Origin: a virus
Length of the DNA stretch: 20,131 nt
Direction: 5' to 3' (one strand)
Virus record (IMG/VR): IMGVR_UViG_3300047551_001483
Coordinates: 1 to 20,131 of that record
Shown here: positions 1-20,131 of the stretch, piece by piece
Layout of the letters: each line of letters starts with the position of its first letter
How positions within the stretch are numbered: position 1 is the first letter of the stretch
Program-made: the position numbers and the translations under genes
The notes under the pieces: model-generated
The model's input: the letters and a program-made list of their open reading frames with translations, nothing else
Databases searched by the model: none
Told to the model about the DNA's origin: nothing

Positions 1-189
1 ATCGATTACACTCTAGGAAAACTTGTTTTATCAGAGTTCGATCCAGTTTCCATCGCAGACCCATTAAAAATTCTTCGTTTCGCTGCTAAACCAGCAACTA
101 ATAACTTCGAATCATCAAAAGATAAAATCTTTACAATCGACGAAGATGACGCAGGATCCATTAACATCAATATGTTTGCGATTGACTGA
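1..189 (+). CDS. 6: Probable baseplate wedge protein gp6, C-terminal fragment
   Basis: The first 62 codons in frame 1 are open and end at a TGA that shares its last base with the ATG of the next gene. Only the C-terminus is inside the window. It reads as a short beta-rich end (IDYTLGKLVLSEFDPVSI, then a KILRFAAKP strand and a FTIDEDDAGSINI strand). This fits the C-terminal end of T4-like gp6, the protein that with gp7 and gp53 forms the wedge core and links neighbouring wedges into the baseplate ring. The strongest support is synteny: the next two genes are recognisable gp7 and gp8 counterparts, and T4 has the order 6-7-8. Sequence alone is too short to be sure; another baseplate protein is possible. 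Confidence 0.62.
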   Translation: MDYTLGKLVLSEFDPVSIADPLKILRFAAKPATNNFESSKDKIFTIDEDDAGSININMFAID

Positions 190-3100
190 TGTTTGCAAAT
201 AACTATATCTCAACAATTGTAGAGAATCAGTTGCCTGATTTTGTCAGATCAGAGCATCCAAAATTTGTTGCGCTCCTTAAAAAGTATTATGAATACATGG
301 AGCAAGATGGTAAAACATTAAATCTCGGAAAAAATCTCTACGACTATGCTGACGTAGATACTACGAGATCTGATTTAATAAAGTATTTTAAATCTAAGAT
401 TATTCCAAACTTCCCAGAAGAAACAGAATTATCTACTGCGAAATTAATTAAAGCAGCCAGAGATTTCTATGATAAGAAAGGCACACCAGATTCATTTAAG
501 TTTCTCTTTCGCGCATTATACAATCAAGACATTGACGTTTACTTTCCTAAAGAAGATATTCTAAAAGCATCAGACGGTAAGTGGAAACAACCACAAGCAT
601 TGCGTTTAGCATTCTCTGATACGCTAACACTAGTTGCGAATGGCAATGTCAACGTGTTTGCTGTTTCTGCGAACACGATCACTTCTAATAACATTAACTT
701 CGTAAGCGCAAGTATCAATGTAAATTCCTATATTCAAATAGGAACAGAGAAAAGAAAAGTTACCAACGTCAATGCATCAACAATCATTGTTGAGATACCA
801 TTTGCGAATACAGGTAATGCGCAAACGTATGACTCTGCTAAACTCTATAAAGTTACACTCAGCGAATATGCATCCTTCAATGTAAATTTGTTAGAAAAGA
901 AACTTGGCGTTGGCGAAGTATCGAGAACAACTTGCGTTATCGAAAAGGCAGTGCAAACAGTTGATAGCCAAACAGGTCGCGAGATCGTTGAACTTTATGT
1001 TTCGAATGTTCGAAGATTGTTTGATGCTGGCGAGAATCTAGTTGTCAAATATACTGAAGATGGTATAGAGAAAACATTTAAGTCTAAGATTATTTCACTT
1101 ATCTCTAATCTTTCTTTGTATCGCAATCGTTTCGGTGTGGTGCAAACAGGTCGCCGTTACAAGACAGGCGATCCAGTCGTGTTTTATGGTGGTCTTGCAG
1201 ATACACCTGACGCCACAGAAGCAGTTGCTGTTGTCAATAATGTTTCTACTGGTTCTATTGAATCTATTACAGTAACCAAGCCTGGATACTATTATAGCAC
1301 ATTCGATAATTCATTTATTCGCGTGTTATCTACTTCTGGCGTTGGCGCTAACGTTGTTATCGATTCTATTTGGGATGACGTACCAGCAAATGCTGAAATA
1401 TTTGCATTTAATACCGACGCTCTTGTCTACAAGAAAGATATTCTTTTAAATGCATTAGAATACGACTTTGATAATGTAACCAATTATGTTAATGTTATTA
1501 CAGGTGCAGGTAATACAGTTAACACTGTTAATTTAAACACTGCTTCCTATGTTGCAAGTAATGTTAATAACTATTACAAATCATTTATTCTACAAATAAT
1601 TTCTGGCACAGGTGCAGCCAACTCGCCTAACAGCGCTCAAATATTGTCATATAATGGTACATCTAAAATTGCAACTCTATCTACTAATCTAGCAGTTGCT
1701 CCAGATAATACTAGCAATGTGAAAATTTATGCCAACGCTCAAACTGAGATTGGTCGCGCGATGACATTTGATAATGTTCTATTGGGTAGAATTAGACTTG
1801 TTGACCTTTTAGATGGTGGTGCTGCGTTTGAAGAACCACCAACCTTTGATACCGAAACAACGTATCAAACAGACTACACTTTAGACCAAGGCTATCTGAG
1901 TATTCCAACTGGTAATTTCTCAAGTTATAATAAAACAGGATTACCATATCCGTCTATTCGTTTAAGATCAGATGGTCCATACAGTTCAGCAAACGGATTC
2001 TATACTGGTTGTAGATTATTTTTAGATCCAGGTGATACAGCACACTATGCAAAAGTTGTGGATTACGTGGTAACCAATCCTGGAACAAGCGCTAATGTGA
2101 AGACACTCTACCTCGATCGCGCTTTTGAAAATAATATTAACGCGATCAATATTCTAGGATTTAGATTATTTTTGGACTTTAGACCAAGCGTTCGCACGAT
2201 TGGTAAAATTGGTATTATCAATGTTAAGAAGGGTGGAAGCGGTTATAACACTGGCGATTTCTTAGAGTTTATTGGAACAGGATATGGCGCCAATGCTACA
2301 TTAACTGTTTCTGGAGGCGCAATTACGTCAGTCAATTTAACCAGTCGCGGTGAAGGCTATAGCGCCATGCCGAGTGTTCGAGTCTTGGCTGCTAATGGAT
2401 CGATCTCAGCAGGCGCCAATGCTGAATTTGAAGTGTTGGGATTGAGCAGCGGTGAAGAAATTACTGCTGAGACCTCAGACATTGGTCGTATTCAAGACTT
2501 CCGTATTATCAATCGTGGCTTCGATTACGCAAACACTCCTCTCGTATCATTAAAAGTTGTAGATATTTTAACTGACAATCTACCAGCCGCTACTGTTGTT
2601 CTAACAGGTGATACGGTATGGCAAGGTAATACCACAAATACCAGCGCAACGTTCCAAGGTGTCGTTGACGCATCTTATAGACCTGATACAGTCAATACTG
2701 TTATTCGCGTGTTTAACTATAGTGGTACTATTAATACTTCCGCAGCACTTAGAGTAAACACTACATCGGGCAATATTTCGGTAAACGTATCAACGCAAAA
2801 CGCTGTAGTGTCATTTGCTGACATTTATGACGCTGCAGAACGCAAATATCCGTTCTATTATGGTAATGGATTGGCTAAAGCCAACGCTGAGTTCCTCAGA
2901 GGTCTTATTAAGTATGACGGATTCTATCTAAACACAGATGGATTCCCAAGTTCAGATAAGAAACTACAGAATAAAGACTACTACCACAATTATTCTTATG
3001 AATTATCTACTGAAAAATCGTTGGATGATTATAAAGAAACGATCTATCGTGTTGCGCATCCTGCAGGTATGCAGTTGTTGTCCAAGTATCTTCTAAAGAA

Positions 3101-3638
3101 TGAGATTGACGATGACTTAACAATATCCTCGAATATCTCTACTTCAAACACTTCTCAGTCAACTAATGCCAATACAAGTTACGCAAGCAATGTTCTTTAT
3201 GGTAACTCATCATTCTTCGTAAGTAAACCTGGAGAACCTGGTCCAAGAGCCAACGTAGGCGATTTAATCGTCATAAATACAACTGAAACAGCTTCTTTAA
3301 AACAATATACAAGAGTGATCGCAAACGTTGTAAGCAACGATGTAATTTGGCTGGAGTCAGCCATTGGTGGAGTTGGCGACGGTCGTTTAAGAATCACTAC
3401 TGGTAATGCTAATGTTAGAGTTTATTCTAACACTTCTGCAATTACAGAAAGTTTGGAAGCCAATGACAATATTTCATTTAATATATCTGGCACTGTTTAT
3501 AGAAAGAGTATCGTATCTATTACTGGTAATTTAATACAATTGAATACGTCAACTGGACTAGCCAACGCCAATGTACTTTACTTAAAGACGCCAATTTATA
3601 ACGTAGTGGCGTATAAGATTATTAGGACAAATTCATGA
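189..3638 (+). CDS. 7: Baseplate wedge protein, remodelled gp7 counterpart with large internal insertion
   Basis: 1149 aa. Residues about 1-135 resemble the part of T4 gp7 that starts some 300 residues before its C-terminus: a helical start, then AARDFYDKKGTPDSFKFLF and RALYNQDIDVYF, which match T4's DFYSTKGIEASYKFLFKVLYNEEVEI. Residues about 878-974 (FLRGLIKYDGF, YKETIYRVAHPAGMQLLSKY) match T4's RYKSDVIRFVHPVGFGF region. Between them lie about 740 inserted residues rich in Asn/Thr beta modules: a GTExRxV module at 170-222, GxGY-type modules at about 355-396, 675-750 and 764-805, and a SYNGT module at 441-515. Some 175 more residues follow the core. The first ~700 residues of T4 gp7 have no counterpart. 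The start overlaps the previous stop (TGATG) and has no good Shine-Dalgarno sequence, so coupled translation is likely. T4 gp7 is the central wedge protein binding gp10, gp8 and gp6. The T4 comparison is from memory. Confidence 0.85.
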   Translation: MFANNYISTIVENQLPDFVRSEHPKFVALLKKYYEYMEQDGKTLNLGKNLYDYADVDTTRSDLIKYFKSKIIPNFPEETELSTAKLIKAARDFYDKKGTPDSFKFLFRALYNQDIDVYFPKEDILKASDGKWKQPQALRLAFSDTLTLVANGNVNVFAVSANTITSNNINFVSASINVNSYIQIGTEKRKVTNVNASTIIVEIPFANTGNAQTYDSAKLYKVTLSEYASFNVNLLEKKLGVGEVSRTTCVIEKAVQTVDSQTGREIVELYVSNVRRLFDAGENLVVKYTEDGIEKTFKSKIISLISNLSLYRNRFGVVQTGRRYKTGDPVVFYGGLADTPDATEAVAVVNNVSTGSIESITVTKPGYYYSTFDNSFIRVLSTSGVGANVVIDSIWDDVPANAEIFAFNTDALVYKKDILLNALEYDFDNVTNYVNVITGAGNTVNTVNLNTASYVASNVNNYYKSFILQIISGTGAANSPNSAQILSYNGTSKIATLSTNLAVAPDNTSNVKIYANAQTEIGRAMTFDNVLLGRIRLVDLLDGGAAFEEPPTFDTETTYQTDYTLDQGYLSIPTGNFSSYNKTGLPYPSIRLRSDGPYSSANGFYTGCRLFLDPGDTAHYAKVVDYVVTNPGTSANVKTLYLDRAFENNINAINILGFRLFLDFRPSVRTIGKIGIINVKKGGSGYNTGDFLEFIGTGYGANATLTVSGGAITSVNLTSRGEGYSAMPSVRVLAANGSISAGANAEFEVLGLSSGEEITAETSDIGRIQDFRIINRGFDYANTPLVSLKVVDILTDNLPAATVVLTGDTVWQGNTTNTSATFQGVVDASYRPDTVNTVIRVFNYSGTINTSAALRVNTTSGNISVNVSTQNAVVSFADIYDAAERKYPFYYGNGLAKANAEFLRGLIKYDGFYLNTDGFPSSDKKLQNKDYYHNYSYELSTEKSLDDYKETIYRVAHPAGMQLLSKYLLKNEIDDDLTISSNISTSNTSQSTNANTSYASNVLYGNSSFFVSKPGEPGPRANVGDLIVINTTETASLKQYTRVIANVVSNDVIWLESAIGGVGDGRLRITTGNANVRVYSNTSAITESLEANDNISFNISGTVYRKSIVSITGNLIQLNTSTGLANANVLYLKTPIYNVVAYKIIRTNS

Positions 3639-5260
3639 AGTCATTAGTCTACAAAGATTTTGGAATCACGAACGCTGAAAACTTCGAGACCATGGTTTCT
3701 CTACCATTGGCAAATGTTTATGTGATGATTGGTCGATCATTACAATGGGCAAATGCGTCTAATAGTTCATTGTTAGATGACACCTATTTACCTGCTCCAT
3801 ATGATACGGTAGATTACGCAAATCAGTTAGCCAGAGATGGCATGATTATGAAAAAGATTACTGCTGCTGATCTTCAATTAGTAGCGCCAAGAGTTGATTG
3901 GGTAGCAAACACAGTTTATATTGCATACAATCAAACAACTAATCTATTTGTTAAGACTATTTCTACCACAATTACTGGTGGAAACGTAAATGTTTCAGGT
4001 GCATTGGCTAATACTGTTGTTGCCAATGGTATTAATCTTGCCGCATTGACTCCTGACGTAATCTCAGGAACACTTATTACTGTAGGTACTGAAACGAAAG
4101 AAGTTCATTACGTGACGCCAAACGGCACATTCCTTCGCGTTAACACAGCATTTGCTAACACATACACTTCACAAAATTTACAAGTATTAACTACGTCAGC
4201 AGTTCAATATTCAAACAAGTTTTATGTTCGTAATAACATGGATCAGGTGTTTAAATGTTTGTTTAACAATGATGGTGGTTTGTCTAGTATAATGCCAGAA
4301 ATCGCATTAGATGGTCAGTTGCCAGAAAATCCATACATTGAGACATCAGATAACTACAAATGGAAGTATCTATACACTATCCCATCTGGTTTGAAAAATA
4401 AATTCTTTACTGACAAATATATGCCAGTTCTTCGTGAGTCTATTGTTTATGATAATGCTGTTGGCGGTAGTATTGATATTATTAAAATTAATAGTGGCGG
4501 AAGTGGATATTATGCTGGCGGTAGCGTTAATAATTATGCTATTGCTACAGTAACTGGTGACGGAACTCGAGCCAATGTCACTGTTGATGTAACCAGCGGT
4601 GTTATAACTGATATTAATATTCTTGATGGCGGCAATAATTATACAACCGCAATAGTGGCATTAAATGACCCACTTCAAACATCATTAGGAGCAAATGCAA
4701 ATTTATCAGTTGTAATTAGCCCAAGTTATGGACACGGTGCATATCCTGTAAGAGAAATAGGTGCATCAGATATTATGATTAGCGTAGATTTTGATGGCGA
4801 TTTAGGAGGCGAACTGCCTACTGAATCTGATGGAACTGACACGATAAGGCAAATTTCCATCATTAAAGATCCGCAGTATGCTAATGGCGCATATGCAACT
4901 TCAACATATTTGCCAGTCTTTACTGAGTTATCTGTTTCTGCGCCATCTGTTACATTTGATCATAACGCTATTGTGTATTCTGGTAGCAGTTATGAGAATG
5001 CAGCGTTTACGGCTCGCGTAGTTCATTTTGATGATGAAACTAATTTATTGTTAATTAACAATATTGCTGGTAATGTGAATGCTTCTATATCAGATACCAT
5101 TTATCAGTACGGTAATCCCCTTGTTACTGCGAAAGTGTTTACCGTCACAAAACCAGATATAAATATTTTCAGCGGTGAGTTATTATATGTCGAGAATAGA
5201 GCAAAGATTACTCGCTCTCCTGATCAAACAGAAACAACTAAACTAGTTGTAGAATTTTAA
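3635..5260 (+). CDS. 8: Baseplate wedge protein gp8
   Basis: 541 aa against 334 in T4 gp8, a dimeric wedge protein that binds gp7, gp10 and gp6. Conserved blocks run in T4 order: VYVMIGRSLQWAN at 28 (T4 TIFITFGRSEPWSSN), VAPRVDWV at 83 (T4 VIPRRDWG), KWKYLYTIP at 242 (T4 VWEYLFEIP), IRQISIIKDP at 404 (T4 FRQISIITNP), and the C-terminal GELLYVENR...DQTE at 514 (T4 GEMIYMENR...DQTE). The extra length sits in insertions: a GTExKxV beta module at about 138-187, a GxGY module at about 277-363, and a further segment around 425-505. The ATG overlaps the stop of the preceding gene by four bases (ATGA), with AGGA at 3624-3627 as ribosome binding site. Identification is strong because both ends and the interior blocks match. 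Confidence 0.93.
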   Translation: MKSLVYKDFGITNAENFETMVSLPLANVYVMIGRSLQWANASNSSLLDDTYLPAPYDTVDYANQLARDGMIMKKITAADLQLVAPRVDWVANTVYIAYNQTTNLFVKTISTTITGGNVNVSGALANTVVANGINLAALTPDVISGTLITVGTETKEVHYVTPNGTFLRVNTAFANTYTSQNLQVLTTSAVQYSNKFYVRNNMDQVFKCLFNNDGGLSSIMPEIALDGQLPENPYIETSDNYKWKYLYTIPSGLKNKFFTDKYMPVLRESIVYDNAVGGSIDIIKINSGGSGYYAGGSVNNYAIATVTGDGTRANVTVDVTSGVITDINILDGGNNYTTAIVALNDPLQTSLGANANLSVVISPSYGHGAYPVREIGASDIMISVDFDGDLGGELPTESDGTDTIRQISIIKDPQYANGAYATSTYLPVFTELSVSAPSVTFDHNAIVYSGSSYENAAFTARVVHFDDETNLLLINNIAGNVNASISDTIYQYGNPLVTAKVFTVTKPDINIFSGELLYVENRAKITRSPDQTETTKLVVEF

Positions 5261-16149: not shown

Positions 16150-16368
16150 ATGAATATACGTCCAAGAATTAAAGTAGTAGTAAGTTCAGATACAAGAGTT
16201 GGTAGAGTAACCTTCAACAAAGTTGCTCGAACTGGTTCTGTTAGATTTACAGATTTATCTGATGTTGTTTCTACTGGGCAGACTGATGGCTCAGTTTTGG
16301 TATATAATGCAAACACAAACATATATGAAGTAAAAACATTACCCAAGGTTGATGGGGGAACATATTAA
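16150..16368 (+). CDS. 72-aa mini-fibre-like protein, function unknown
   Basis: After a basic N-terminus (MNIRPRIKVVVSSDTRVGRV, residues 1-20), residues 33-63 carry FTDLSDVVSTGQTDGSVLVY followed by NANTNIYEVK. This is the D-L-x-D-V...G-x-x-L-x-Y-N-x-x-T-x-x-Y/W module found inside many phage fibres. A similar stretch, LASLNDVNIGAPFSDQNNK, lies at 108-126 of the next fibre. The protein ends VDGGTY, like the LDGGSF end of the 447-aa fibre. It starts immediately after the previous stop, and its own stop overlaps the next ATG (TAATG). The tight coupling and fibre-like motifs suggest a small fibre-associated or cap protein; that is inference. No good Shine-Dalgarno sequence of its own is visible. 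Confidence 0.7.
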   Translation: MNIRPRIKVVVSSDTRVGRVTFNKVARTGSVRFTDLSDVVSTGQTDGSVLVYNANTNIYEVKTLPKVDGGTY

Positions 16369-17711
16369 TGTCCACTCTGGTACAAATTAAACGATCGACA
16401 GCGAATGTCGCCCCTCCGTCACTCATAGAAGGCGAGTTAGCGTATTCCTATGTAAGTAATACATTATTCATTGGCGATACAGCCAATGGTGTAATGAATA
16501 TTGGCGGTAAGTTATATACCGATTTAATTGATGCAGGTTCAGCCGCAAATGGGTCGATGACCTTTGTTCGTCGATATTCAAATGGTTCTGCTCAGTTCTC
16601 TCAGCTCGATATTCTTGTTTCTCCAACTGCGAATAGTCACGTTGCAACAAAGCAATATGTTGACGAAGCAGTTACAGCCAATGTAACGCTCGCATCACTT
16701 AATGACGTCAATATTGGCGCACCATTCAGTGATCAGAATAACAAAATCTTAATCGGTAACAGCGCAGGATACTATGTTGGAACTGCAGTTACTGGTAATG
16801 TTTCGATTTCAAACACTGGCGTCATTACTATCGGCGCAGGTCAAGTTGTCAATTCAATGCTTGCCAATGCCAAGATTGGCGTTGTCGCAGGCGCAGGTTT
16901 AGCAAGTAATCTTGCAGTACCAGCACTGGGTGAGACTGTACAACTTGATGTAATTGCTGGTGATGGTATTAGCAACACTGGCGACGCAATCGCAGTTGAT
17001 AATACTGTTGTTCGCACCAGCGGAACACAGACAATCAATGGTCTCAAAACATTTAATGACACTGTTACCATTGACGATAATCTATATGTTACAGGAAACA
17101 TTTTCCTAAATGGTAACACAACGTATATCAACGTTGCCACATTAAATGTTGCTGATCCATTAATCTATCTTGCATCTAATAATTACTCATCCGATATCGT
17201 TGATATTGGTTTCATGGGTGCAAAGAATACTGCAGGTCAGTATAGCCATACAGGTCTTGCTCGTCACGCAGCGGATGGTATTTGGTATCTCTTTGATAAT
17301 CTTGCCGAAGAAGGTCATGTTAATAACGTTGTAGACGTTGCAAATACAACGTATGCACTATTGCGCGCAAACATTGACGCGAAGTCAATGAATACTCAAA
17401 CATTGGGTATTTCTCAGACGCTATATGTGACAGGCAATACAACATTATCATCTAACTTAACAGTATCGAAAAATGTTTCGATCAGTCAAAACTTAACTGT
17501 AACAGGAACTGCAGACTTTGGTTCTCTCACATTAAGTTCGCCGCTCGGAGTACCATCAGGTGGTACTGGTAAGGCATCATTTACAGCGAATGGTGTATTC
17601 TTTGCGAATACTACATCTTCGTTGTCGTTTGCAACAGGTACAGAAGGTCAGGTTTTACAAATTGCATCAGGAGTTCCAGCATTTGCTATGCTAGATGGTG
17701 GCTCCTTCTAA
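16368..17711 (+). CDS. Tail fibre protein
   Basis: 447 aa. The N-terminal module at 7-47 (IKRSTANVAPPSLIEGELAY, then NTLFIGD) is shared with the 603-aa fibre and the partial last gene and probably attaches the fibre. HVATKQYVDEAV at 91-102 is a common fibre helix motif. Residues 110-230 are beta-rich and end TSGTQTINGLKTFN. A marine-phage fibre domain follows at about 252-337 (TLNVADPLIYLASNN, DIVDIGFMG, HTGLARHAADGIWYLFD). The C-terminal part has TVTGN-type strands and, at 391-447, PLGVPSGGTGKASFTANGVF, then TEGQVLQIASG and LDGGSF, a frequent fibre ending. The start overlaps the previous stop by one base, with no clear Shine-Dalgarno. The role as a trimeric fibre is inferred from these modules. 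Confidence 0.8.
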   Translation: MSTLVQIKRSTANVAPPSLIEGELAYSYVSNTLFIGDTANGVMNIGGKLYTDLIDAGSAANGSMTFVRRYSNGSAQFSQLDILVSPTANSHVATKQYVDEAVTANVTLASLNDVNIGAPFSDQNNKILIGNSAGYYVGTAVTGNVSISNTGVITIGAGQVVNSMLANAKIGVVAGAGLASNLAVPALGETVQLDVIAGDGISNTGDAIAVDNTVVRTSGTQTINGLKTFNDTVTIDDNLYVTGNIFLNGNTTYINVATLNVADPLIYLASNNYSSDIVDIGFMGAKNTAGQYSHTGLARHAADGIWYLFDNLAEEGHVNNVVDVANTTYALLRANIDAKSMNTQTLGISQTLYVTGNTTLSSNLTVSKNVSISQNLTVTGTADFGSLTLSSPLGVPSGGTGKASFTANGVFFANTTSSLSFATGTEGQVLQIASGVPAFAMLDGGSF

Positions 17712-17723
17712 TAGGAGTATGTT

Positions 17724-18194
17724 ATGAATGAACAAGCATTTATTAATGCATATATTAAGTTATTAAATGATTCTTTTAACGAAGCGATAAATAAAAACAT
17801 AGTTTTACAGGCACAGTTAGAAGTAGCAAAAAAAGATGTTGGAAGGGTTGCAGAACTTGAGGAAAAAGTAAAACAACTATCAACAGAATCATTTGATAAT
17901 AGTGGGCTTGCTGGTAGGTTACAAGAACTCGAGAGGCAACTAGCCGAATCTCGCAATCAAAGCAAGTCCGTTGTTGAAAATTTAAATTCTCAACTTGCAA
18001 ATAAAGCAATGCAGGCTGAGACGTTTAAGCGAGAAGTTTTGTCATGTCGTGAGACCATCAAAAATTTGACAAACGAGATTCAGGTTTTAAAGAGCAGAAA
18101 AAAGAAAAAACCTGTTAATGAAACTGTGACAGAGAATGTGGTTGAACATGCTGCTGAAGCAAAAATAGAGGATTCAAGTAGCGACACATTCTAA
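17724..18194 (+). CDS. Coiled-coil protein between fibre genes, function unknown
   Basis: 156 aa. Residues 1-24 form a helical start (MNEQAFINAYIKLLNDSFNE). About 25-123 is a long coiled coil broken near 57-63 (ESFDNSG). RKKKK at 125-129 is followed by an acidic, Ser/Glu-rich flexible tail ending SSSDTF. There is no beta-fibre sequence, unlike its neighbours. A good ribosome binding site, TAGGAG at 17712-17717, precedes the ATG; an ATG at 17719 is excluded because it stops after two codons. The stop overlaps the ATG of the 603-aa fibre. Position and shape would suit a fibre assembly chaperone or a rod-like linker, but nothing in the sequence proves either. Confidence 0.72.
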   Translation: MNEQAFINAYIKLLNDSFNEAINKNIVLQAQLEVAKKDVGRVAELEEKVKQLSTESFDNSGLAGRLQELERQLAESRNQSKSVVENLNSQLANKAMQAETFKREVLSCRETIKNLTNEIQVLKSRKKKKPVNETVTENVVEHAAEAKIEDSSSDTF

Positions 18195-20005
18195 TGTCAA
18201 CAACGATACGAATTAAAAAATCTGGAACAGCAAGCAATACTCCTGGAACACTGGAGTTTGGCGAACTTGCCATCAACTATGCTGATGGCAAACTGTTTTA
18301 TAAAGATGCCACTGGAAACATTCAACAGTTTTCCAGCGGTGGCAATATTAATGCATTCGAAACTGTTAATGCTAACGGTTCTTTGCTTATTGCTGATTCG
18401 AATACTGACATTTTAAATATCATCGCTGGTACAGGTATCGACATCAGTGGCAACACTGTTAGCGATACATTCACGATAACTTCACGTTTAGATAATACTG
18501 TAACCAGCACTAGCACAACTTCAGCTGCTACACCTGCTGCAGTAAATGCTGTTCACACGATAGCCACTGGTGCATATACACTAGCAAATTCTAATTATTT
18601 GCCAGCAGTTACACGATTAAATGTTACTGCACCTGGAATATATTATTCTATAGATCAGTATTCAGGAAATAATCCTACTCTTTATATTCGTGCTGGCGAA
18701 ACATTAGCATTTAATTTAAGTGTATCTGGTCATCCATTTATGATTCGCGTCTCAAGTGGCGGCGCAAATTATAATACTGGATTAACACACGTTGCTGCTA
18801 ATGGTGCAATAAGCACTGATGGAAGTGCGCAAGGGCAAGTCAGCGGAACTCTATATTGGAAAGTTCCATTTGAATTACAAGGCAATACTTATGTCTATCA
18901 ATGTTCCGTTCATAGCGGAATGGTTGGTAATGTTGTTATTGAGCAGCCAACAGCAAATGTATTATCTGTTGCCACATCAGCATACGGTCAAGCAAACGCA
19001 GCATATACTCAAGCGAACGCTGCTTATGTTCAGGCTAATGCAGCATACACTAAAGCCAATGCACCAATTACTATTAGAGAAATATATTCTAGTAATGGTA
19101 ATGTTATTAATTCATTCGCAAATATTAATACAATTCAGTTTGATACTGAATCTGGATTAGCAGTTGTAGATGAAAGTAATAATGCTGTCACAATTCAATT
19201 AAACAGCACATTTAAGTATTGGAATATTAATGGTAATCCAGGTCTTGTTGCAACAGGATTAGACACAGTTAATTTTATCGGTAGTGGAATTACCATCACC
19301 GCAAATAATAATGCTTCGCCAAAAACAATCACCTTTACATCTACTGGTGGTGGGGGTGGTGGAAGCAACACTGAAATTATTGTTGATTCGAATACTGTAG
19401 TTGCACAAACAAATACCTTTACATTATCTCAAAACGTAAACGCAATTAGTCAATTAGTTGTAGCCAAAAACGGTTTACAACTTACACCTAATCTTCATTT
19501 TATAGTCTCAGGAAATACAGTAACATTAAACGCTGTTGCTGAGATTAATGATGTCATGACGTTTACAAATTTTAGAAGCGTGACAGGAACAAGTAGTGGA
19601 GCAGGATTAACGCAGTATTCATATAACACCACAACATCATCAATTGAAACTGTTGATGAGTGGTCAAAATCTACTTACAGAAGCGCAAAGTATCAGATGC
19701 AAGTTGAAAGTGGTGCTGGCTATTATAGCACTGATATTATGCTAATTCATGATGGTGTTTCTACGAATTTAGTTCAATATGGAACCGTATCATTTGCTTC
19801 TAATGTTGGCGTATTTTCTTCTGACATTAGTGGAAGCAACGTTAGACTTCGTTTTACTGCCACAGATGCTACATCCAATTTAACCTACTTTAGAACAATA
19901 CTTGCTAACAGAGCATCTGAATCATTACCATCTGATCTAATGAATGGAAACGATTCTTATGATCTAATGTTAACACTTCCATTCAACCCAACAGACTTAA
20001 ATTAG
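18194..20005 (+). CDS. Tail fibre protein with embedded cupredoxin-like domain
   Basis: 603 aa, a mosaic of fibre modules. Residues 7-48 hold the shared N-terminal module (IRIKKSGTASNTPGTLEFGE, NYADGKLFYKD). A beta segment covers 55-100. At about 145-252 lies a cupredoxin-like domain with His180, Cys237, His240 and Met243 in the positions of a type-1 copper site. Four AYxQANA heptads (263-290) form a likely trimeric coiled coil. A beta domain at 292-383 leads to a Gly6 linker at 385-390. The next module, at 393-460, includes LVVAKNGLQLTPNLHFIVSG. A C-terminal domain at about 475-575 (DEWSKSTYRSAKYQMQVESG, DIMLIHDG) is common in marine phage fibres. The ATG overlaps the preceding stop by one base, so translation is probably coupled. 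Fibre role: strong inference. Copper binding: untested. Confidence 0.82.
   Translation: MSTTIRIKKSGTASNTPGTLEFGELAINYADGKLFYKDATGNIQQFSSGGNINAFETVNANGSLLIADSNTDILNIIAGTGIDISGNTVSDTFTITSRLDNTVTSTSTTSAATPAAVNAVHTIATGAYTLANSNYLPAVTRLNVTAPGIYYSIDQYSGNNPTLYIRAGETLAFNLSVSGHPFMIRVSSGGANYNTGLTHVAANGAISTDGSAQGQVSGTLYWKVPFELQGNTYVYQCSVHSGMVGNVVIEQPTANVLSVATSAYGQANAAYTQANAAYVQANAAYTKANAPITIREIYSSNGNVINSFANINTIQFDTESGLAVVDESNNAVTIQLNSTFKYWNINGNPGLVATGLDTVNFIGSGITITANNNASPKTITFTSTGGGGGGSNTEIIVDSNTVVAQTNTFTLSQNVNAISQLVVAKNGLQLTPNLHFIVSGNTVTLNAVAEINDVMTFTNFRSVTGTSSGAGLTQYSYNTTTSSIETVDEWSKSTYRSAKYQMQVESGAGYYSTDIMLIHDGVSTNLVQYGTVSFASNVGVFSSDISGSNVRLRFTATDATSNLTYFRTILANRASESLPSDLMNGNDSYDLMLTLPFNPTDLN
18626..18949 (+). 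other. Cupredoxin-like domain (codons 145-252 of the 603-aa fibre)
   Basis: The stretch runs GIYYSIDQYSG, PTLYIRAGETLAFNL, SGHPFMIRVSSGG, YWKVPFELQGNTYVYQCSVH and SGMVGNVVIE. This is the strand order of a plastocyanin/azurin-type fold. His180 sits after a Gly on the first ligand strand. The C-x2-H-x2-M spacing of Cys237, His240 and Met243 equals that of amicyanin (CTPHPFM) and is two residues shorter than in plastocyanin (CSPHQGAGM). All four ligand positions are filled. Similar segments occur, as I remember, in marine phage structural proteins; I know of no functional study. Confidence 0.7.
18980..19063 (+). repeat. Four 21-base heptad-coding repeats (AYxQANA)
   Basis: Codons 263-290 of the 603-aa fibre encode AYGQANA, AYTQANA, AYVQANA and AYTKANA. 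The DNA copies differ mainly at third positions, so the amino-acid pattern is being kept, not the bases. Regular Ala/Tyr and Ala/Asn heptads of this kind form trimeric coiled coils in fibre shafts. Confidence 0.8.
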
Positions 20006-20035: not shown

Positions 20036-20131
20036 ATGCCAACAACATTACAATTTAGACGCTATGGTACTGCTGCCACTGCATCTGTTACAGGTGCGAA
20101 TGGTGAAATTACCATTGACACAGATAAGGAA
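20036..20131 (+). CDS. Start of another tail fibre gene (partial)
   Basis: Thirty-two codons are open to the window end. The product begins MPTTLQFRRYGTAATASVTG, then ANGEITIDTDKE. It matches the N-terminal module of the 447-aa and 603-aa fibres: a short beta strand, Arg/Lys-rich turn, T/A-rich stretch, G-E-[LI] and a D-x-[DG]-K segment. It is therefore probably a third fibre of the same attachment family. It follows the late promoter at 20005-20012, with AAGAGAGAA as the probable ribosome binding region. The rest of the gene lies outside the window. Confidence 0.75.
   Translation, partial: MPTTLQFRRYGTAATASVTGANGEITIDTDKE

Follow-up and report, generated by a model that had tools for sequence, protein, structure and literature searches.

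In a tail-fibre protein from an uncultured T4-like phage, residues 139-250 are probably a genuine cupredoxin domain in which the type-1 copper site is complete, and which has been plugged as a module into a baseplate/tail-fibre protein of T4-like type. The protein is encoded in a 20131 base stretch of DNA from an uncultured IMG/VR virus record (the whole stretch is hereafter called the window). Computation shows the fold, the homology to type-1 copper proteins, and that the four ligands have been kept together. The original prediction of such a domain is correct, beyond chance, and its scope is broader than first noted, as the domain recurs widely in the tails of marine phages and is not a single curiosity.

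A tail-fibre gene among baseplate genes

The open reading frame at 18194-20005 (+ strand) encodes a baseplate-associated tail-fibre protein of 603 amino acids with an internal cupredoxin domain. The domain (18608-18943, + strand; residues 139-250, including the C-terminal strand) is supported by a structural model, structure matches and a profile match. The tail-fibre label first given to this protein is backed by phrog_677 ("baseplate wedge tail fiber protein connector"), which matches residues 47-250 with an E value of 5.7e-30, and there is also a weak match to Phage_fiber_2. A set of AYxQANAAY repeats, read from the translation, lies 3' of the domain (18980-19066, + strand) and may represent a fibre shaft or linker. 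The surrounding genes are baseplate and fibre genes, including a baseplate wedge protein at 189-3638 (+ strand; PF23786, phrog_17744) and a gp8-like baseplate wedge protein at 3635-5260 (+ strand), which tblastn aligns with gp8 of T4-like cyanophages at ~30% identity. The adjoining fibre gene (16368-17711) has a BppL_N match of 28.4 bits, over the Pfam cut-off of 25.8, and a further fibre-like gene begins in the last bases of the window (20036-20131; MPTTLQFRRYGTAATASVTGANGEITIDTDK), where it is truncated by the contig end. Comparison with phage records revealed no DNA closely matching the window.

Four residues of the domain are predicted to bind copper, and each is found at the place originally named: His180, the first ligand, in an HPF motif (18731-18733), followed by Cys237 (18902-18904), His240 (18911-18913) and the predicted axial ligand Met243 (18920-18922) within QCSVHSGMVG, all on the + strand. 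The strand pair PTLYIRAGETLAFNL, which had also been claimed, is present in the translation. The four residues are invariant in A2, an alignment of 26 diverse family members that were picked with intact sites (29-76% identity to the window domain). Cys237 is the sole cysteine in the 603 amino acid protein and is therefore without a disulphide partner inside its own chain, and histidines occur at residues 121, 180, 199, 240, 435 and 519. His199 (18788-18790) lies in the motif Y-N-T-G-L-T-H-V and is invariant (H73 in domain numbering) in A1, an alignment of 31 related domains from viral contigs that represents the window's own subfamily; cyanophage gp9 domains do not have the equivalent His.

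Predicted fold and homology to type-1 copper proteins

AlphaFold2 gave a model of the window domain with a pLDDT of 90.2 and a pTM of 0.82. Searching this model against the PDB with Foldseek returned 56 matches at E ≤ 1e-3, with rusticyanin first (3.1e-5); amicyanin (1.2e-4), copper nitrite reductase, laccases and plastocyanin were also matched, and the best 50 matches are copper proteins of the cupredoxin superfamily. VIA-align superposed the domain on copper nitrite reductase with a Z score of 10.7 (2.3 Å over 106 residues) and on the N-terminal domain of 2dv6 with a Z score of 10.0 (2.3 Å over 94 residues, 27% identity). As had been proposed, the domain is predicted to fold as a cupredoxin sandwich. 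Within the model, His180 is located just ahead of strand 56-59, Cys237 closes strand 106-111, and His240 and Met243 are in the loop preceding the last strand, 118-124 (strands in domain numbering). The modelled ligand loops occupy the positions where type-1 copper proteins hold their ligands, and the superposition and alignment suggest that the four ligands would cluster within bonding distance. In a separate model of Syn9-type gp9, residues 300-406 at the C-terminus form a high-confidence domain (pLDDT ~92) with the same cupredoxin fold, matching 2dv6 (Z 10.4) and rusticyanin; the model is poor outside this domain.

The window domain scores 17.6 bits against Pfam PF00127 (Copper-bind), under the gathering cut-off of 21.2, which is cleared by the relative L226 (24.6 bits). 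The C-x2-H-x2-M spacing had been likened to that of amicyanin, and phmmer does pair H54, C111, H114 and M117 of the domain with chain positions 53, 92, 95 and 98 of amicyanin 2gb2, though weakly (E 0.73). The A2 profile matches PDB sequences of plastocyanin (7.1e-6), rusticyanin (2.5e-5) and amicyanin (7.1e-5), and the chains matched at E < 0.001 comprise plastocyanins, rusticyanins, amicyanins, pseudoazurin, auracyanin, azurin and copper nitrite reductases. In the A2 profile alignments with plastocyanin and rusticyanin, each of the four ligands meets its counterpart, such that the phmmer and profile alignments together place His180 opposite the N-terminal ligand His of amicyanin, plastocyanin and rusticyanin. 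The window sequence alone is marginal; the significance of the window domain comes from the family profile, the fold and the ligand conservation. Pro follows the N-terminal ligand His in 26/26 A2 members. This counts against the copper-site reading, as Asn is usual at this position in small blue copper proteins; HP is the motif seen at the type-1 sites of multicopper oxidases. One family member, L055, has the variant spacing C-x2-H-x3-M.

Conservation and loss of the ligands

Eight columns of A2 are invariant (G42, H54, P55, G88, Y109, C111, H114 and M117) and four of these are the ligands, a result that leans to intact sites as the members were chosen that way. An open survey of fetched viral loci gave 266 distinct full-length viral domains covering all four ligand positions. 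H, C, H and M are all kept in 258 of them, Cys, the second His and Met are jointly lost in five, and both His are lost with Cys and Met kept in three, which belong to one clade. None of the 266 domains has lost exactly one ligand. Cys and His are not freely lost in homologues. Some of the retrieval peptides include ligands, so bias was checked with ligand-free peptides, and the domains that these retrieved give the same picture (for example, 62/62 for VGDTINFN and 23/23 for GMTYAFDN). After reduction at 50% identity, with degenerate copies included, the four ligands occupy conservation ranks 6 to 9 among 94 columns. We attach no probability to ligand retention because the sequences are related and the losses represent few lineages.

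The joint losses of Cys, His and Met are found in L060 and in the second and third copies of three-domain arrays in L209 and L252. The first array copy is intact in both L209 and L252, and their relative L222 has three intact copies, so that L222 can be set against L252 and L209 as a naturally occurring contrast between intact and dead copies. These tandem triple domains lie in one marine phage protein each (from 1349 in L222, 1373-1888 in L252 and from 1367 in L209). In the phage arrays of L369, L370 and L373 (around 1500-1870), Phe and Gln replace both His, and Cys and Met are kept. We considered a strict all-or-none loss of the site, which the early degenerate copies fitted, and rejected it: a freshwater clade (FCQM) keeps Cys and Met without both His, and the claim is therefore reduced to "never exactly one ligand lost".

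The pattern is that of a working metal site and not of a fold kept for itself. Ligand conservation does not identify the metal, and phage proteins fold in the cytoplasm, where the C-H-H-M site might take up Zn(II) or another cytosolic metal from assembly onwards and hold it as a structural staple, with no copper. When blue copper proteins are expressed in E. coli, their apo forms can take up zinc. A Met fourth ligand at the type-1 spacing is, however, typical of copper and unusual for structural zinc, and copies without a site survive next to intact ones within tandem arrays, so the fold can do without a staple. We consider a zinc staple unlikely.

The site-lost copies surveyed (HSSV, ESNY, DSTI, ESSA, HSFL and FCQM) also fit a domain that is scaffold only, in which the cupredoxin fold came from a cellular copper protein, the ligands remain by descent, and the domain serves as a metal-free Ig-like spacer or adhesin. 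Drift would be expected to yield single losses first, yet no such domain was seen, and the high conservation rank of the ligands also argues against a bare scaffold, making this quite an improbable account. The domain is most likely a metal-binding surface module of the baseplate/fibre complex, with copper as the first-choice metal.

Distribution, proposed role and comparison with known systems

Using tblastn, the domain was found in 329 phage records, mostly of T4-like phages of Synechococcus and Prochlorococcus. There it is annotated as gp9 "baseplate wedge tail fiber connector", under other baseplate or fibre names, or as hypothetical, and the fibre proteins that carry it differ widely in architecture. 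Among cyanophages, the full-length copies examined show HP and, after it, C-x2-H-x2-M. The domain was not detectable with the family profile in the structural region of S-CREM2 (42-104 kb) and is therefore not universal in cyanophages. The S-SZBM1 gene carrying the cupredoxin domain, S-SZBM1_206 (SSZBM1_206), encodes a protein of 498 amino acids that was identified by mass spectrometry in CsCl-purified virions, with 9 peptides and 24.9% coverage (PMC9146016 Table 1). At least one domain-bearing member is therefore a virion protein, and the window protein is presumably one too.

The suggestion of a plastocyanin-like host partner was rejected as a general rule, as no psbA turned up in the five long relatives of this phage that were checked (83-173 kb, of which some may be incomplete). 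Electron transfer with a host envelope partner, or redox sensing that switches the baseplate, is very unlikely: although the top profile matches are electron-transfer proteins (plastocyanin, rusticyanin and amicyanin), the varied architectures of the domain-bearing fibres and the presence of the domain in relatives without detected psbA indicate that a photosynthetic partner is not general, and we know of no partner for a redox role. The record of L011 (172,991 bases), a long relative, contains two cupredoxin domains and no psbA was found in it, unlike the marine cyanophages checked.

Phage assembly is cytoplasmic and free copper is scarce in the cytoplasm, which counts against copper loading. 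For a metal-binding surface module, we suggest that the protein would be synthesised in its apo form in the host cytoplasm, that copper, or zinc at first, would be acquired during lysis or in the water, and that the metal-loaded domain would then be displayed on the tail. More speculatively, the site might serve contact with the host surface through docking that depends on the metal or on redox state, much like the iron-bearing tail fibres of the "Ferrojan horse" idea. This role is suggested because site-lost versions persist beside intact ones, so that the metal is not needed just for the fold. Marine phages with the domain may thus carry copper on their tails. That many aquatic T4-like phages, including well-studied cyanophages, use type-1 copper of the baseplate or fibre when they meet the host, for metal-receptor docking or as a redox trigger, is a possibility that we put forward tentatively and hold to be doubtful; it would be a metal-borne adsorption step not previously described in phages. 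Blue copper proteins are familiar as cellular electron carriers and enzymes. An intact site retained in tail proteins across hundreds of marine phages would turn phage particles into marine carriers of copper-binding domains and would point to a metal-dependent adsorption step. The domain is a directly testable target in cultured phages such as S-SZBM1, Syn9 and P-SSM4.

A profile search of genome contigs with A1 revealed no cellular relatives, while searching them with L133 identified three Flavobacteriia (L353-L355). Their domains are 46-49% identical to the L133 viral domain and have all four ligands. The Flavobacteriia proteins differ in being cellular and lipoprotein-like, with three CHRD domains and a C-terminal cupredoxin-family domain; the proteins lie at 3732-5315 in L354 and 3735-5315 in L355. 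Checks of the CHRD domains and the lipobox covered L354, and L355 by reading alone. Such lipoprotein-like proteins are a possible cellular source of the domain. BFVD matches include proximal tail fibres, S8-peptidase-annotated proteins and giant-virus "beta-sandwich" proteins. Among A0A481YVH3, A0A481Z6J5 and A0A7D3QVK4, which match the model, are Marseillevirus/Pithovirus "beta-sandwich" proteins and a Fadolivirus "blue type 1 copper protein".

The domain shares its fold, strand order and four ligands with amicyanin, plastocyanin and rusticyanin (PF00127 and other type-1 cupredoxins), and its C-x2-H-x2-M spacing with amicyanin. Unlike these proteins, the window domain is located inside a virion fibre protein, has no signal peptide and has Pro after the first His, and single members of the phage family are mostly under the Pfam cut-off. 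In gp9 of T4-like cyanophages (phrog_677; T4-GC 398), the homologous domain is C-terminal and has the same ligands. By direct reading, the gp9 N-terminal region (ANDNTGDTLR..GG.KINDNF) is absent from the window protein, where the PHROG match starts at residue 47 and profile position 216, and in contrast to gp9 the window protein continues past the domain with fibre repeats and ~340 more residues. Cyanophage PetE, the auxiliary plastocyanin, is a cupredoxin encoded in some of the same phages. It differs in being a small separate gene with a signal-peptide-like start and a PF00127 match of ~1e-20, and an origin of the tail domain from the phage's own petE was provisionally rejected, given that the tail domain matches PF00127 only marginally. 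Metal ions are also found on the HxH tail fibres of T4 gp37, whose HxH motifs bind octahedral iron and are not a folded type-1 copper domain (PMC11705849). The "Ferrojan horse" hypothesis, built on iron at these tail-fibre motifs, is the nearest published idea (PMC11705849), and the open-licence papers searched describe no cupredoxin from the tail or virion of a phage. The domain combines a known fold and a known site with an apparently undescribed location.
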